64,000 nucleotides of DNA from positions 62,001 to 126,000 of the forward strand of contig CAKZYA010000004.1 in the NCBI GenBank assembly GCA_937883755.1. The letters are read 5' to 3'. The position numbers and the translations under genes were made by a program. The notes under the pieces are model-generated. The model searched no databases and was not told where the DNA came from. It saw nothing but the letters and a program-made list of their open reading frames with translations. This document shows, one piece after another, positions 33,121 to 64,000 of the stretch; position 1 is the first letter of the stretch, and every line of letters starts with the position of its first letter. The stretch is from an uncultured Flammeovirgaceae bacterium (GTDB lineage Bacteria > Bacteroidota > Bacteroidia > Cytophagales > Cyclobacteriaceae).

Positions 33121-33507
33121 CTAAAACGGTAAATCATCTTCTTCGTCTGAGGCCGAGAGTAAGTTCTCGTTGTTGCTAGAGGAAGGAGCTGGTGTTTCGG
33201 CTGCTGGGGGCGGAGCGGTCGCTTCAGTAGCCGCTGGTTGTATACGCCAGGCTTGCAGTGAGTTAAAGTATTTTGTGACGCCTTGCCGATCTACCCATTT
33301 TCGTCCTTTCAGGTTGAAGCTAATAGTTAGTTCCTGACCTACCTGAAAGCTATTGAGCAAATCACAACGATCTTGAATACACTCAAACTTTAGGTACTCA
33401 GGGTACTGGGGGTTATCGGCGTATTCTACTACAAATTCGCGTTTTCGGAAGGTATCTGTCACTTGTGTGGTATCTGAGAGTTCAATAAGTTTTCCTTGAA
33501 TTTCCAT
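33121..33507 (-). CDS. DUF3127 OB-fold-like protein with SSB-type acidic C-terminal tip
   Basis: A 128-residue protein. Residues 1-90 match the DUF3127 pattern (MEIQGKLIELSDTTQV, YPEYLKFECIQDRCDLLNSF, LTISFNLKGRKWVDRQGVTK), a predicted small beta barrel. A disordered Pro/Ala/Ser-rich linker (about 92-117) leads to a tip ending EEDDLPF. That layout of OB-like domain, flexible linker and acidic tip with terminal Pro-Phe is the layout of bacterial SSB, whose tip recruits DNA repair proteins. A link to single-stranded DNA metabolism is inference. It lies upstream of the M42-like gene on the same strand. Confidence 0.82.
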   Translation of the reverse strand: MEIQGKLIELSDTTQVTDTFRKREFVVEYADNPQYPEYLKFECIQDRCDLLNSFQVGQELTISFNLKGRKWVDRQGVTKYFNSLQAWRIQPAATEATAPPPAAETPAPSSSNNENLLSASDEEDDLPF

Positions 33508-54674: not shown

Positions 54675-57134
54675 ATGAATATAAATTCAGCGTTTGATCC
54701 ATTTTTTGCTCAAGATTTTGATGAAGAAACCGATGATCTTATTCAGCTAGTAACTGCGGAAGAGGAAGAGGATGACGAGGTAATTGAGTTTCCCGAGGAG
54801 CTATCCGTTTTACCAATTCGCAATACTGTACTATTTCCGGGAGTGGTAATTCCGATCACGGTTGGACGGAAGAAGTCGATTAAGTTAGTGAAGCAGGCTT
54901 ATAACAAAGGCAGTCGCCTTATTGGGGTGATTGCTCAAAAAGATAATCAGGCTGAAGACCCCGATACCACTGAAGTATACGAAGTAGGCACCGTAGCGAA
55001 AATTATTAAAGTACTGGTGTTGCCCGATGGTAACACTACCATTATTATTCAGGGAAAGAAGCGCTTTAAGGTAAGTTCTTTCGTACAGGATGAGCCGTAC
55101 ATGATAGCTCAGGTAAAGTATCTGGAAGAGAAGTTTCCCTCGCCCAAGAGAAAAGAACTAGTTGCCCTGGTGCAATCGTTGAAAGAAGCTGCTGCCAAAA
55201 TTCTTCGACTAAACCCCGAAATTCCTCAGGAAGCCCAGCAAGCGCTGGACAATATTGATAGCCCCAGTTTTCTAACCCACTTCCTTTCTTCCAATATCAA
55301 TGTAGAAGTGAAGGATAAGCAGAAACTGCTGGAGATTAATAATGGTATGCAGCGGGCTAAGCTACTGCTGGAGTATATGCTCAAGGATATTCAACTACTG
55401 GAAATCCGGCACGAAATCCACAGCAAAGTACATTCAGATATTGACCAGCAGCAGCGCGATTACTTCTTGCGGCAGCAAATGAAAGTGCTACAAGACGAGT
55501 TGGGTGACGGGGGGCTAGACCAGGAAGTGGAGAAAATGCGGATGCGAGGCGAGAAGAAAAAGTGGCCCGAAACGGTATCTGAGCATTTTAACAAGGAGCT
55601 CGAGAAACTTTCCAGAATGAATCCGGCTGCTGCCGAGTATCCGCTAACCTACAATTATGTAGAGCTACTGCTTGACTTACCTTGGCAAGATTATACTAAG
55701 GATAATTTTGACTTGAAACACGCTCAGCGTATTCTCGACCGTGATCATTACGGGCTTGATAAGGTAAAAGACCGGATTATTGAGTACTTGGCAGTGCTCA
55801 AGCTGAAAAATGATATGAAGGGGCCTATTCTTTGCTTATACGGCCCTCCTGGTGTTGGTAAAACTTCTTTAGGAAAATCTATCGCTTCATCTCTCAACCG
55901 GAAGTACGCCCGGATGTCGTTAGGAGGAGTGAGCGATGAAGCAGAGATTCGTGGTCATCGTAAGACCTACATTGGGGCAATGCCCGGTAAGATTATTCAG
56001 AATATCAAAAAGGCTAAGTCGGCTAACCCGGTCTTCATCCTGGATGAAATTGACAAAGTGCGTTCTGATTTTCGGGGTGATCCATCTTCGGCTCTGCTAG
56101 AAGTGCTTGATCCTGAGCAGAATAGTACTTTTCTGGATAATTACCTGGAAGTTGATTACAACCTTTCAAACGTGCTGTTCATCGCCACGGCAAACTCACT
56201 AGATACCATTCATCCTGCTCTGCGCGACCGGATGGAAATCATTGATATTTCTGGTTATACGCAAGAGGAAAAAGTAGAGATCGCTAAGCGTCACCTGATA
56301 CCAAAGCAACGCAAAGAACACGGTCTGACGGGAAAAGACATTTCCTTTGATAAAAAAGCGATTGTCCGGATAGTGGAAGATTATACTCGCGAATCGGGGG
56401 TGCGGAACTTGGAACGTAAACTGGCTACAGTTATCCGAAGTGTGGCTAAATCGGTAGCCATGGAAGAAGAATATTCTAAGAAAATTACCGAAGCGGAAGT
56501 GCGACGGGTTCTGGGAGCCCCTACGTTTGACAAAGAAAATTATCAAGACAACGAAACTCCGGGCGTAGTAACCGGATTGGCCTGGACCCAGGTAGGAGGA
56601 GAAATTCTGTTTATTGAAAGTAGCCTGAGCCGGGGAAAAGGAAAATTAACGCTATCAGGACAATTGGGCGATGTGATGAAGGAGTCGGCCATGACAGCAC
56701 TTTCGTATCTAAAGTCCAAAGCCGATCGGCTAGGTATTCACTATAAAGTTTTTGAGAACTACGATTTACATGTACACGTTCCGGCTGGTGCGGTCCCCAA
56801 AGATGGGCCATCGGCAGGGATTACGATGCTTACCGCGATAGCTTCGGTTTACACCCAGCGCAAAGTAAAAGCTAAAGTGGCGATGACTGGAGAAATCACG
56901 TTGCGAGGTAAGGTGATGCCCGTGGGAGGAATCAAAGAGAAAATTCTAGCGGCACGTCGCGCTGGAATCAAGGAAATTATTCTCTGTGAAAAGAATCGTA
57001 AAGATATTGAGGAGATTGACGAACGCTACGTAAAAGGCTTAAAAGTACACTTTGTAAATACTGTGAGCGAGGTGCTGGATCTGGCACTGCTGAAAACGAA
57101 AGTGAAAGAACCATTGGAGTTGGTGGCAGATTAG
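54675..57134 (+). CDS. lon: ATP-dependent protease Lon
   Basis: Cytoplasmic AAA+ serine protease for misfolded and regulatory proteins. It has the N-terminal LON domain (about 40-245, [20 protein letters not shown]), Walker [14 protein letters not shown], Walker [11 protein letters not shown], and a protease domain with the catalytic Ser in [10 protein letters not shown] and Lys in [15 protein letters not shown]. It has 819 residues, complete. Its 3' end is covered on the opposite strand by the tail of a truncated RES toxin ORF. Confidence 0.97.
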
Positions 57135-57363
57135 TCACTATACTTATTCCAACGGATACATTTGGTACCTCTAACGATACCATCATTAGGTCAGAAACAG
57201 GGTTAGGATTATTAACTCGATACTCTAGAACTGCTAATGAACGGTGCTGGGCAGTATAAATAACTGGTAAGCCGACTGAATTCCACCTTCCACCAAACAA
57301 AGCTGCCCCATAACCATCGAGCTGACTGGCGTAGGGGCGACGGACGAGTCGATAAACCAGCAT
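57135..57363 (-). pseudogene. RES-domain toxin, truncated to its N-terminal half
   Basis: The first 76 or so codons match RES toxins well: MLVYRLVRRPYASQLDGYGA, then ALFGGRWNSVGLPVIYT, EYRV and MMVSLEVPN. RES proteins are about 150 residues, and the conserved continuation (LPxxW, SxxxPxENNYLxNP) is absent. At codon 77 the frame runs into the end of lon and continues as lon antisense to a stop at 56977, which would give a nonsense 52-residue tail. Intact RES toxins degrade NAD+. This one has lost essential C-terminal residues and is most likely inactive. Its start overlaps the antitoxin stop by one base. Confidence 0.8.
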
Positions 57364-57767
57364 TAGGAGTATACTCCGTGCTCAATGCGTCCCAAAATAG
57401 TCATCACCCACTGAATGCCAACGGGAGTATCCAGTAGGCTAATTGGTTGAACACTACCCAGTGCAGTGACGGGTGTTCTTAGCCATTGGTTAGCGAGGGC
57501 ATCATCGCCTAGCACTTCTACCGCTCTGCGGTACAAGCGGGCTAATTCTAACAGCTGACCGGAAGCCGCCGCAGGCAGCAGATCACTGCCTTTCATCCGT
57601 TGGATGGTACGTGGGGTGAGGTGTAGCAAATCAGCTAGTTCTTTCTGTGACAATTGCATTCGAGCCTGCACTTCCTGCATAAACTGCTTACTTACGCCCT
57701 CCCGCGCTAGTTTTATCCAGTCAATAGATTGTTTTTCAGAAGTTTCTAATACTTGAGCAGCTTGCAT
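57363..57767 (-). CDS. Xre/MbcA/ParS-type antitoxin (DUF2384) of a RES-Xre system
   Basis: A 134-residue antitoxin. The N-terminal Xre-like helix-turn-helix (MQLSQKELADLLHLTPRTIQ) is followed by the DUF2384 toxin-binding domain (LARLYRRAVEVLGDDALANQ, WLRTPVTALGSVQPISLLDT) ending GRIEHGVYS. It would normally neutralise the RES toxin gene that overlaps it and repress their shared promoter. The antitoxin appears intact although the toxin is truncated. Paired AACGACAA words upstream (57781-57810) are the probable operator. Confidence 0.88.
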   Translation of the reverse strand: MQAAQVLETSEKQSIDWIKLAREGVSKQFMQEVQARMQLSQKELADLLHLTPRTIQRMKGSDLLPAAASGQLLELARLYRRAVEVLGDDALANQWLRTPVTALGSVQPISLLDTPVGIQWVMTILGRIEHGVYS

Positions 57768-59587: not shown

Positions 59588-59692
59588 ACGTCACTGCGAG
59601 GAAGTATGACGAAGCAGTCTTCTCCCTAAAACCCTAAAGCAGGAGATTACTTCGCTCGTCCCTCGTCCATCGTAGAACGCTCGTAATGACGT
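59588..59692. repeat. MITE-like palindromic intergenic repeat, copy 1
   Basis: A 105-base element with imperfect inverted ends (ACGTCACTGCGAG / CTCGTAATGACGT, 11 of 13 matching) and internal segments CAGTCTTCTCCC and AGGAGATTACTTCGCTCGT. A second copy lies at 60685-60778. Copy 1 ends 1 base from the stop codon of the broken Uma2 remnant. Confidence 0.7.
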
Positions 59693-60025: not shown

Positions 60026-60637
60026 ATGGAAGTTCGCGAAATAACTGTTGAAGAAGCACAAGTAAAAATACCCGAATCGTTAGTTTATGAGGTATTGGAT
60101 GGACAGCCGGTACCTTATCAAGGCTTTCGGGAAGTGATGGCTGGCAATAAAAAGTTAGAAGATATTATGGGTAGTAGTGGCTTACAATCGTTCGTCATAA
60201 CCAATGTGTTAGTAAGGTTCTTGATGAAAAATCTGCCCGAGGAAGAGTACGATATTTTAAGTAACAAAGCCGGATTACATTTGGGTAAAAACAATAATTT
60301 GGCAACTGATATCGGTATTTATCCTATCGGTGTACTTACTCCCGATAAGCTCACTAATCAATATCTTGATATTCCCCCACAGGTAGCTATCGAGGTAGAT
60401 ACTAAGGTTGACTTTAGCCAATTCAATAGCCCTCAGGATTACCTTTACCAAAAAACGCAGGCATTGCTAGATTTTGGTACTGAGCGGGTTGTTTGGATAT
60501 TCACAGCTAGCAAAAAGGTCATGACGGCTACCGCTCAGGAGGATTGGATTACCCACGACTGGGATAAGCCCGTTACTTTGCTTCCTAATGTCACCTGCCC
60601 GTTGGCCGAACTGTTAGCAAAACGCGGTATCAAGTGA
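60026..60637 (+). CDS. Uma2-family (DUF820) restriction-endonuclease-like protein
   Basis: A 203-residue protein with a PD-(D/E)xK-like fold. It has the N-terminal YEVLDGQPVPYQGF, the Asp of ATDIGIYPIG, the catalytic-type pair VAIEVDTK (E-x-D-x-K), and the C-terminal VVWIFTASKKVMTATAQEDW. Uma2 proteins are widespread in cyanobacteria and Bacteroidota, and their role is not settled (possibly DNA cleavage by mobile or selfish elements). It stands back to back with a decayed paralogue and between two palindromic repeats, in line with gene birth and loss in an accessory patch. Confidence 0.85.
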   Translation: MEVREITVEEAQVKIPESLVYEVLDGQPVPYQGFREVMAGNKKLEDIMGSSGLQSFVITNVLVRFLMKNLPEEEYDILSNKAGLHLGKNNNLATDIGIYPIGVLTPDKLTNQYLDIPPQVAIEVDTKVDFSQFNSPQDYLYQKTQALLDFGTERVVWIFTASKKVMTATAQEDWITHDWDKPVTLLPNVTCPLAELLAKRGIK

Positions 60638-60684
60638 ATAGCTATCAAATTCCACACTGCTGAATATTCAAATACCCGTTTTAT

Positions 60685-60778
60685 CGTCACTGCGACCCCG
60701 GACTTGATCCGGGGGTGGCAGTCTCCCGACAAAAAAGAAGGAGATTACTTCGCTCGTTCCTCTCGCTCGTAATGACGT
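60685..60778. repeat. MITE-like palindromic intergenic repeat, copy 2
   Basis: About 94 bases, sharing with copy 1 the start CGTCACTGCGA, GCAGTCTCCC, AGGAGATTACTTCGCTCGT and the end CGCTCGTAATGACGT. It contains an extra perfect hairpin, CCCCGGA (60696-60702) with TCCGGGG (60708-60714). It ends 14 bases before the 3' end of the Shedu gene and could act as its terminator. Confidence 0.7.
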
Positions 60779-60791
60779 GTATCTATTTCTA

Positions 60792-61838
60792 TTAAAATGG
60801 AAAATCATCTTCGTCATCAACTTCGTAGATGGGCTCACCTTCACAGAGAATCTCAAGCTGCCTTTCACCTCGAGCTAGCAACTCATCGTAAGTGATTATT
60901 GAAATATTGTGTAGTTCAGAACTCAATTCCTGTAGAGCTTGTAATTTATCATCTTCCCAGTTACTCGATCTGCCTATGACAATAATTGCCTTAGGTTCAC
61001 AGGCTACAATTTCTCTGTTATCCATAAGACCGTTTTTTGCAGCCTCACTAAAAACTTTGATATATCTTATACATTGTCCAATGGCTTTTGATACGTCACT
61101 TGAAAAATAGTAGTTCTTATGACTTTCATCATAAAGTAAAACTTTCATATCTGGACGCTTAAGCTCTACAATATCTCTAAATCCAGATAGTACGGAAGGA
61201 AGCAGTAAATCAATGCTATCACTAGGGCTAATATTTCTTATTTGATCAATTGTTAAGTAATTATTCCCAAATACCCAAGAATATTCTTCACACCATTTTT
61301 GATACACCTGTTCTCTCGATTCACCAGCTTCTAAGTAAAACCTTAACTCCTGTATAGCTTCTCTCATCTCGTTTGTTTTCATAGCTACACGAAGAGAGTT
61401 TCGTATTTCGCTTGAAACCTCTCTTGAAGATAAATACTCTACAATATCTTTCTCATTTAGAACCTTTAATAGAGTATTTGCAACTGTTTCTTTATCAAAT
61501 TCTTTTAAGTTGTTCTCGCCATCAGAAGTCTTTATTACTAAATATTCCCCATCAGAACCTTGCTTAGCAATCTCTAAGTTTTCCTTTAAAAACTGATAAA
61601 GCTTTATCGTTGCAATATGATTTAGATTGATGGAACATTCTTCCTGATGTAGAGATAAACGACCGTCGCCCCTTTTTTCTTTAATGATTTTCAGGCTTAG
61701 TTCATCTTCTTTACTTGATCTTTGAATAAAGTGAGATAAAACCTTTATTCTAGTCTTAGTACTTTGGTGAATAACAATGGGATCACGATATGATGTTCGT
61801 CCTGAACTGGCCTTTTTCCTTCTGATATTGTCTACCAT
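60792..61838 (-). CDS. Shedu-type (DUF4263) anti-phage nuclease with SSB-like C-terminal tip
   Basis: A protein of about 348 residues. The C-terminal half matches the Shedu SduA/DUF4263 nuclease domain: EEYSWVFGNNYLTIDQIRNI, then SPSDSIDLLLPSVLSGFRDI and VELKRPD, giving the PD-(D/E)xK set Asp210, Glu225-x-Lys227, followed by Gln255-xxx-Tyr259 in IGQCIRY. The N-terminal 160 residues are a divergent sensing or regulatory region. The last residues are EVDDEDDFPF, very like the SSB tip. ATG 61838 was preferred to the in-frame GTG at 61877 because AAGGAT precedes it and the GTG lies inside the nrdA terminator. Shedu is a single-gene phage defence system. No partner gene is needed or seen. Confidence 0.85.
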   Translation of the reverse strand: MVDNIRRKKASSGRTSYRDPIVIHQSTKTRIKVLSHFIQRSSKEDELSLKIIKEKRGDGRLSLHQEECSINLNHIATIKLYQFLKENLEIAKQGSDGEYLVIKTSDGENNLKEFDKETVANTLLKVLNEKDIVEYLSSREVSSEIRNSLRVAMKTNEMREAIQELRFYLEAGESREQVYQKWCEEYSWVFGNNYLTIDQIRNISPSDSIDLLLPSVLSGFRDIVELKRPDMKVLLYDESHKNYYFSSDVSKAIGQCIRYIKVFSEAAKNGLMDNREIVACEPKAIIVIGRSSNWEDDKLQALQELSSELHNISIITYDELLARGERQLEILCEGEPIYEVDDEDDFPF

Positions 61839-61860
61839 TTTCTTATCCTTTGCGGTGTAG

Positions 61861-61896
61861 TAAATTAAAAACGCCACCTAAGTTAATAAGTGGCGC
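61861..61896 (-). terminator. Rho-independent terminator after nrdA
   Basis: CGCCAC (61872-61877) pairs with GTGGCG (61890-61895), with extra pairs inside, and is followed on the minus strand by TTTTTAATTT. It separates nrdA from the Shedu gene. Confidence 0.75.
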
Positions 61897-61919
61897 TTTC
61901 TTATGTTTCTTAAGATGAC

Positions 61920-64000
61920 TTAGCTTCCACAGGCTTCGCAGCTGTCGGGGTCATCCAGGGAACATTGCATGTCAGATTGCTTTTGGGCTTGGGGGCCACT
62001 ACCGGCGTTACCTTGCAATTGTCCACCTCCGGGGGCGGGGGCTCCTACGGGAACTTCCGCTGCTTTCGGTTGGTCTTGGGTAAGTGCCGCTTTGTCAACT
62101 GTAAACTTGATAGCGTCAGTCGCCGCTTTCGTACGTAAGTAGTACATTCCGGTTTTCAGCCCTTTCTTCCACGCGTAGAAGTGCATAGACGTTAGCTTAC
62201 CAAAGTTAGGATCCTGCATATGGATATTCAGGCTCTGGCTTTGGCAAATGTACGCACCACGGTCGGCGGCCATATCCAAAATAGTCTTCTGCGAAATCTC
62301 CCAGGTAGTCTTGTACAGATCTTTCAAGTTCTGAGGAATCTCATTGATATTTTGGATAGAGCCGTTTTCGGCAATCAGTCGGTTCTTCATGCCTTCGTTC
62401 CAAAGATCAAGATCTACCAGGTCACGTAGCAGGTGCTTGTTCACTACCACAAACTCGCCAGACAGTACGCGACGGGTGTAAATGTTAGAGGTGTACGGCT
62501 CGAAGCACTCATTATTACCCAGAATTTGCGAAGTGGAAGCCGTTGGCATTGGTGCCAGTAGCAGGGAGTTACGTACTCCGTTCTTTTTCACTTCTTTCTT
62601 GAGCTTACTCCAATCCCAGCGGTTGCTTTCGGGAGTTACTCCCCACATATCAAACTGGAAGATTCCCTTCGATACCGGTGAGCCTTTAAAGGTTTCGTAA
62701 GCGCCCTCTACTTTCGCCAGCTCCATAGAAGTTTCCATAGAGGCGTAGTAGATCGTCTCGAAGATGTCGCGGTTCAGTCCTTGGGCTTCATCCGACTCAA
62801 ACGGCATTTTCAGCATGATAAAGGCATCCGCCAGTCCTTGAATACCAATACCGATGGGGCGGTGCCGCATGTTGGAGTTCTTGGCCTCTTTCACCGGATA
62901 GTAGTTCACATCAATCACCTTATTCAGGTTGCGGGTTACTACTTTAGTGATTTCGTACAGCTTCTGATGATCGAAGAAGTTATTACCGTTTTCATCCTGA
63001 CTGATAAACTTCGGCAACGCGATAGAGGCGAGGTTACAAACCGCTACTTCATCTTTAGAAGTGTATTCAATAATCTCGGTGCAGAGGTTAGATGAGCGAA
63101 TGGTTCCCAGATTCTTCTGGTTGGATTTTTTGTTCGCCGCATCTTTAAAGAGCATATACGGAGTGCCGGTTTCCACTTGGGCTTCCAGAATTTCAAACCA
63201 TAAATCCTGCGCCCGAACTGTCTTACGGGCTTTGCCTTCGCGTTCGTACTTTTCGTACATCTTCTCAAATTCTTCACCGTACTTATCGTACAGTCCGGGG
63301 CATTCGTTAGGGCAGAACAGTGACCATTCCTCGTTATCTTCTACTCGCTTCATAAAAAGATCGGGAATCCACAGCGCGTAGAACAAGTCACGAGCACGAA
63401 GCTCTTCTTTACCGTGGTTCCGCTTCAACTGTAAGAAGTCGAACACGTCGGCGTGCCAAGGCTCCAGATAAATAGCAAAGCTGCCTTTTCGTTTTCCACC
63501 ACCCTGATCGACATAACGAGCCGTCATATCAAAGTTCCGCAGCATCGGCACAATACCGTTAGAAGTACCATTGGTTCCGCGAATGTACGAACCCGTCGCC
63601 CGAACGTGGTGGATGCTTAAACCAATTCCTCCGGCTGATTGCGAAATCTGAGCACACTGCTTCAGTGTATCGTAAATGCCATCAATAGAATCGTCTTGGA
63701 TAGTTAGTAGGAAACAACTGGAAAGCTGAGGTTTAGGAGTCCCCGCATTGAAGAGGGTAGGAGTGGCATGAGTGAACCACTTCTCGGAAAGTAGATTGTA
63801 GGTCTCAATCGCCGCCTCAATATCTTCACCGTGAATTCCGACAGCTACCCGCATCAGCATATGCTGCGGACGCTCTACTACTTTTCCGTCTAGCTTAATC
63901 AGGTACGACCGTTCCAGGGTTTTAAAGCCGAAAAAATCATAGCTGTAATCCCGGCTATAAATGATAGTAGAATCAAGTTGGGCGGCATGCTTCTTAATTA
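61920..64000 (-). CDS. nrdA: Ribonucleoside-diphosphate reductase, alpha subunit (5' end beyond window)
   Basis: Class I ribonucleotide reductase large subunit; makes dNTP precursors from NDPs with the radical-bearing beta subunit. The frame is open to the window edge (upstream residues read [20 protein letters not shown], then RPQHM), so the Met at 63860 is internal. Landmarks are [20 protein letters not shown] (active-site Cys), [78 protein letters not shown] and the redox tail ending CEACGS. About 693 codons are visible, roughly the last 80-90 percent of the gene. Confidence 0.96.

Follow-up and report, generated by a model that had tools for sequence, protein, structure and literature searches.

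The window, a 64,000-nucleotide stretch of DNA from an uncultured Flammeovirgaceae bacterium, encodes a Shedu nuclease whose C-terminus has all the sequence elements by which the tail end of bacterial SSB (SSB-Ct) docks to partner proteins, namely acidic residues, a proline and a terminal phenylalanine. Judged from sequence and its distribution, we consider it close to an even bet (probability roughly 0.47) that this tip arose convergently as an SSB-Ct-like docking motif and would tether a stand-alone Shedu to SSB-partner proteins. The protein itself is not a new family.

A Shedu nuclease with an acidic Pro-Phe C-terminus

The open reading frame (ORF) runs on the minus strand from an ATG at 61838 to a stop codon at 60792-60794 and encodes 348 amino acids with the C-terminus EVDDEDDFPF; an alternative GTG start at 61877 would yield 361 amino acids (Table 1). 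The protein matches PF14082 (SduA_C) over residues 174-321 (1.2 × 10−17, 65 bits against a cut-off of 27), and 23 PADLOC SduA models match it, the best of which, PDLC00402 (1 × 10−129), aligns residues 2-348 to positions 6-354 of 354. The first-pass annotation had described a Shedu nuclease with an SSB-like acidic Pro-Phe tip, and this description was confirmed by the ORF, by PF14082 and PDLC00402, and by DDEDDFPF followed directly by the stop. In an alignment of 21 rows, D210, E225, K227 and Q255 fall in columns that are at least 90% invariant, as expected from sequence for a PD-(D/E)xK nuclease. When the structural model was searched with Foldseek, ranks 1-7 were all Bacillus cereus Shedu chains (best E-value 9.5 × 10−8, 8ti9/8ti8), and a profile search also matched the protein to 8ti8, 8ti9 and 8ps4.

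SduA_C was the only domain found in the Pfam scan. SduA_N (PF21407), which is present in the Bacteroidota Shedus L017 and L079, gave no Pfam match in the N-terminal region, and the OB-fold SSB domain PF00436 was absent; an excerpt of PMC12137116 describes the N-termini of the Shedu family as diverse. NCBIfam returned no family for the window protein, either full-length or minus its last five residues, or for L003 and L004.

Table 1. Features of the Shedu gene, in window positions.
Feature	Position	Strand	Basis
Shedu (SduA, DUF4263) nuclease gene, PADLOC subfamily PDLC00402	60792..61838	-	ORF, PF14082, PDLC00402, structural match
SduA_C nuclease domain, residues 174-321, with D210, E225-x-K227 and Q255	60876..61319	-	Pfam bounds, alignment
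N-terminal region (residues 1-173), with strands inside 15-55 followed by helices	61320..61838	-	Pfam, AlphaFold2
Acidic tail, predicted disordered, residues 335-348	60795..60836	-	pLDDT <50
SSB-Ct-like tip DDEDDFPF, residues 341-348	60795..60818	-	translation, comparison with own SSBs, genome scan

The gene is flanked by a 203-aa plus-strand ORF without a Pfam match and by a ribonucleotide reductase gene, and promoter and terminator scans gave signals that were not above those of shuffles. The 203-aa ORF (60026-60637) lies between two plus-strand copies of the 14-base sequence CGCTCGTAATGACG (59678-59691 and 60764-60777; 0 expected from shuffles), which could be the trace of a mobile element or of a repeat. 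That the tip is itself part of a repeat was rejected: within 60600-62000 no repeat overlaps it, and the CGCTCGTAATGACG copy at 60764-60777 lies outside the gene. Elsewhere in the window, two adjacent minus-strand ORFs at 56977-57767 are, judged by sequence, a putative RES-domain toxin and its Xre-like antitoxin.

The tail is predicted to be disordered

The AlphaFold2 model of the window Shedu has a mean pLDDT of 74.0. Most ten-residue blocks of the nuclease core exceed 90, with lower values at 191-220 (75-80), 261-270 (78) and 271-280 (49), and the block means of residues 1-140 range from 32 to 80, which is middle to low confidence. The final core helix spans residues 317-332, and residues 335-348, which include the tip, all fall below 50. 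The possibility raised earlier that the tip is buried as a strand of the nuclease fold was therefore not borne out by the model. In L098, a Bacteroidota Shedu of another subfamily, the 32-residue tail (368-399 of 399) likewise has pLDDT values below 50, such that predicted tail disorder is common to the two subfamilies.

As for a flexible linker in the window Shedu, 14 residues are predicted with pLDDT <50, but only approximately 8 residues separate the helix end (332) from the last eight residues. In E. coli SSB a spacer of 11-20 residues with no fixed sequence is needed, according to an excerpt of PMC10164576. The spacer of the window Shedu is shorter, and this is a weakness of the docking reading.

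Acidic Pro-Phe ends are rare in the host genome

We scanned the own genome of the window Shedu (7,601,364 bp) in all frames on both strands for [DE][DE]xPF with a stop-like codon directly behind it; this strict pattern occurred at 11 sites, compared with 15 for a reversed control pattern. Recognisable genes account for four of the 11 sites: the window Shedu itself, a DUF3127 protein (DEEDDLPF) and two SSBs, of which the main one ends in DEMDDLPF and the other in AEDELPF; the remaining seven are in ORFs of 14-59 residues measured stop to stop. From the control rate and the density of stop-like sites in the window, the strict pattern is expected by chance at approximately 1.4 × 10−5 of gene ends, which gives 0.09 occurrences for an assumed total of 6500 genes. 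Under the looser tip definition used for counting below, the residue composition of 36 window ORFs gives a chance of approximately 3 × 10−4 per protein.

The DUF3127 (PF11325) protein, 128 aa at 33121-33507 of the window (minus strand), has a Pro/Ala/Ser-rich linker and the SSB-type tip ASDEEDDLPF, and resembles an SSB-like protein that bears its own docking tip; a paper on a Pantoea phage mentions DUF3127. One of the seven short ORFs, of 57 aa (L035, 1501-1674, minus strand), has no Pfam match and terminates in ILDDDLPF close to where its stretch ends; it could be a real gene or the end of another tip-bearing protein.

The tip is enriched among Bacteroidota Shedus sampled and absent from most Shedus

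For counting, a tip was defined as a C-terminal PF with at least two D/E in the preceding six residues. The Bacteroidota sample was drawn from PF14082 searches of 395, 118, 10 and 195 genomes (overlapping sets), which gave 42 places besides the window's own, not picked by ending; three were dropped (two without a locus, and L081, which runs off its stretch), leaving 39 readable C-termini. The tip was present in five of these (L004, L005/L021, L040, which is gene L017, L079 and L098). As background we used distinct stop-ended ORFs from the loci and the window, not all of which are real genes, at cut-offs of 100, 120 and 150 residues, the last of which excludes the second SSB and the DUF3127 protein. 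At 100 residues or more, 3 of 662 non-Shedu ORFs had the tip, these being the two SSBs and DUF3127 (Fisher p = 2 × 10−5 against 5/39); at 150 or more the figure was 1/330 (6 × 10−5), and after removal of loci that had been fetched for an SSB or a tip it was 0/317 (1 × 10−5). Because L004 and L005 belong to one genus and L017 and L098 are near relatives, the five unselected cases amount to approximately three events. With each related group counted once, the tip occurs in 3/37, with p-values of 0.0006-0.006 over the backgrounds tried.

In a larger, partly selected set of 72 readable Shedus, eight carry the tip and 64 do not, and the tip as a general Shedu feature was rejected on this count. Selection entered this set through plasmids: among the first 12 plasmid regions, five (H12, H13, H44, H50 and H52) were picked for a match at or near the query end, and both tipped plasmid Shedus (L086 and L097) are among these five. 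None of the 12 plasmid Shedus that were fetched regardless of ending has a tip. The L079 query matched 46 records, 26 of which were read, 24 within the set of 72 and two more outside it. Phage sequences gave no match to the window Shedu (P0001) or L017, and five scans of viral contigs yielded no relative; three stretches hit there by a DNA motif were of unrelated sequence. No DNA-level match to the Vibrio Shedu gene was found in E. coli.

The tip recurs on separate branches of the Shedu tree

The nuclease domains of 73 Shedu rows were placed on a quick maximum-likelihood tree, in which the 73rd row, L081, was scored as tip-less with its end unseen. The tip occurs in 8 of the 73 rows, on four separate branches, and demands at least six changes, in a tree that does not distinguish gain from loss and has some weak inner forks. 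The first tipped branch is the PDLC00402 clade with the window Shedu, L004 and L005, which also holds a Vibrio protein whose ending deviates (DDWLDFEF) and a Streptomyces copy that is broken and tip-less. The second comprises L017, L098 and L079, which are Bacteroidota proteins of another subfamily, next to the tip-less L018. The third and fourth are a Phaeobacter plasmid Shedu (GEEDTPF) and a Dietzia plasmid Shedu (ARDQPPF).

The genes of the nearest Bacteroidota relatives found, L004 (1501-2574, minus strand) and L005 (1497-2563, plus strand), which come from one genus, are both broken, and by different lesions, an in-frame TGA in one and a frameshift in the other; loss, cost or sequencing error may account for this.

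Close homologues without the tip, named in the first-pass annotation as evidence against mimicry, exist in places: the tipped Dietzia protein has a 60%-identical relative in Mycobacterium gordonae with no tip, and in the 45%-identical Vibrio (V. ezurae) relative the acidic tail ends in FEF with no proline. Because these close homologues are without it, the tip is, as far as sequences tell, a subfamily- or lineage-specific add-on and not a Shedu feature. The tip recurs across subfamilies and phyla, and its last four residues are kept between L017 and L098, but most readable Shedus do without it.

Type I restriction genes adjoin three of the Shedus (L040, 2592-3464, minus strand; L098, 178-930, plus strand; L107, 140-1537, plus strand). 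In L040 and L098 the Shedu, tipped in both cases, directly follows a gene that reads as S-subunit-like; in L107 the Shedu, which has no tip, comes after a gene annotated as an S subunit, and HsdR is encoded further along. An Agrobacterium plasmid Shedu (L102, 218-1732, plus strand) has the long acidic tail EEDLSEEDEFADLDEDEDFEDESDE and no Pro-Phe.

The last residues are kept in one close pair and in some cases resemble the SSB of the clade

Between L017 and L098 the core is 85% identical, and the 29 tail columns that precede the last four residues are 31% identical with gaps counted; the last four residues (DLPF) are identical at 4/4 positions, with one synonymous difference, at the Leu. We read this as a sign of selection on the tip. 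Across the tipped Shedus the Pro codons differ. The last five residues contribute +3.4 bits to the PDLC00402 profile score in the window Shedu, +7.1 in L004 and +2.6 in the Vibrio variant, and the alignment of the window Shedu reaches the last profile position only with the tip present.

Bacteroidota Shedus end in DLPF or DFPF, and the own SSBs have DLPF or ELPF. DQPPF, the ending of the Dietzia Shedu, can be set beside SEPPF and TQPPF on plasmid SSBs of two other actinobacterial genera; the Dietzia plasmid itself encodes no SSB, and both plasmids with PPF-ending SSBs carry tip-less Shedus (L106 and L109). The SSBs of V. ezurae end in DDDIPF and YDDIPF and its Shedu in DDWLDFEF, and a Roseomonas Shedu ends in EEPPL on a plasmid whose SSB ends in DDDIPF. 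The tip endings fit the clade in some of the few comparable cases and depart from a neat rule in others.

A proposed docking motif and the alternatives to it

In SSB partners, according to excerpts of PMC10164576, the C-terminal Phe is buried in a hydrophobic pocket, its carboxylate is anchored by a basic lip and the Asp residues of the tip meet a basic ridge, and removal of the Phe or a change of the Pro to Ser cripples binding. If the Shedu C-terminus is a functional copy of this motif, it would dock in the basic/hydrophobic SSB pockets of RecO, which the own genome encodes (L121), and of RecQ, PriA, RecG and similar host proteins. Docking would tether the nuclease where these proteins work on phage DNA as it replicates, at its ends, its gaps and the forks that restart, might in addition or instead displace SSB from its partner proteins, and would by tethering aid phage restriction. 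Pocket binding, the bringing of the nuclease to DNA and the benefit for restriction are all steps that we infer. The first-pass annotation had proposed that the tip may dock on RecO, RecQ, PriA or ExoI, may recruit the nuclease to forks or may hold it in check until phage SSB appears, and its interpretation as a whole is partly supported. SSB mimicry by the tip is, on the comparisons above, a plausible mechanism, and the recurrence of the tip on separate branches suggests, without proving it, that the tipped Shedus plug into the host replication and repair machinery.

Acidity alone could also serve the nuclease. A DNA-like acidic tail might cover Shedu's own DNA-binding surface and restrain it electrostatically, the Pro-Phe having no specific partner. 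The tails of the eight tipped Shedus, 17-35 residues long as cut by eye, all have a net negative charge (−6 to −15), acidic tails occur without PF in the Agrobacterium protein and with an FEF end in the Vibrio relative, and Shedu expression in foreign hosts is reported as toxic in an excerpt of PMC12904381, so that restraint would be useful. We nevertheless regard this explanation as unlikely: acidity does not account for the Pro-Phe end, PF is the commonest C-terminal dipeptide of the 72 Shedus (8 cases, the next having 3), the last four residues are kept beyond a diverged linker in L017 and L098, and PPF is found on an actinobacterial Shedu as well as on actinobacterial plasmid SSBs.

The tip might instead occupy a pocket on Shedu itself or on a neighbouring subunit and hold the enzyme inactive until free phage SSB-Ct, or exposed SSB-Ct, competes for the pocket and activates the nuclease. 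Such a latch would be in keeping with excerpts of PMC12904381 in which detection of phage SSB is presumed to activate Nhi, Hachiman and the Eco8 retron and Shedu is described as freed from autoinhibition by DNA-end binding. It becomes quite improbable in view of the tail, which is placed without confidence in both monomer models (window Shedu and L098), and of the intact tip-less relatives found in three of the four tipped branches, which therefore imply no conserved own pocket.

Neutral drift, by which fast-changing Shedu tails reach an acidic PF by chance with no binder, would suit the variability of these tails, the 60%-identical tip-less relative of one tipped protein, the weakly acidic Dietzia tip and the modest enrichment per related group, but it is very doubtful given the 5/39 Shedus against three background ORFs that are themselves SSBs and DUF3127, the far lower rate that composition predicts, and a tip that sits on separate branches and is kept where the linker has diverged.

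Implications of the docking reading

A broader form of the docking reading, in which Shedus repeatedly and independently evolved the SSB tip of their own clade (DLPF/DFPF in Bacteroidota, PPF in an actinobacterium) and the SSB network acts as an address system for guided nucleases, is one that we put forward tentatively and with somewhat more doubt than belief. If this broader form is true, it would be a general, previously unnoticed route by which an anti-phage nuclease is brought to replicating or recombining DNA. A transferable C-terminal tag into the SSB network would amount to a targeting principle that is simple and open to test, and would predict the host proteins touched by each tipped Shedu. 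The C-terminal acidic-PF on non-SSB proteins would also provide a sequence handle for finding further proteins, of defence systems or of mobile elements, that draw on the SSB network.

How Shedu discriminates phage from host DNA is described as not settled in an excerpt of PMC12904381, where further specificity determinants are suspected. For EcSduA, DNA-end sensing has been shown and proceeds via an N-terminal clamp (excerpts of PMC12904381 and PMC12137116). In the open-licence literature that we searched, we found no report of an SSB-like tip on Shedu or another defence nuclease.

Comparison with known systems

The window Shedu resembles the B. cereus Shedu (8ti8/8ti9) and 8ps4 in being a single-gene SduA_C (DUF4263) PD-(D/E)xK nuclease. 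It differs in its tail: the solved chains of 8ti8 and 8ps4 end no more than three residues past the match or last helix (379/382 and 408/411), and because these full-length chains end so close to the match, they have no room for a tip. With bacterial SSB-Ct it shares acidic residues followed by hydrophobic-Pro-Phe at the very C-terminus, here on a tail that is predicted to be disordered, whereas in Shedu the tip is joined to a nuclease, the linker is shorter than E. coli SSB needs and the SSB domain is missing. Nhi, Hachiman and the Eco8 retron are likewise defence nucleases tied to SSB biology in the excerpted text of PMC12904381, but these are thought to sense phage SSB, whereas Shedu would itself bear the SSB ending. 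The PriB-SSBc chimera (excerpt of PMC8509808) also places the SSB C-terminal region on another protein of DNA metabolism; in contrast to the tipped Shedus, it is a laboratory construct and not a natural defence protein.
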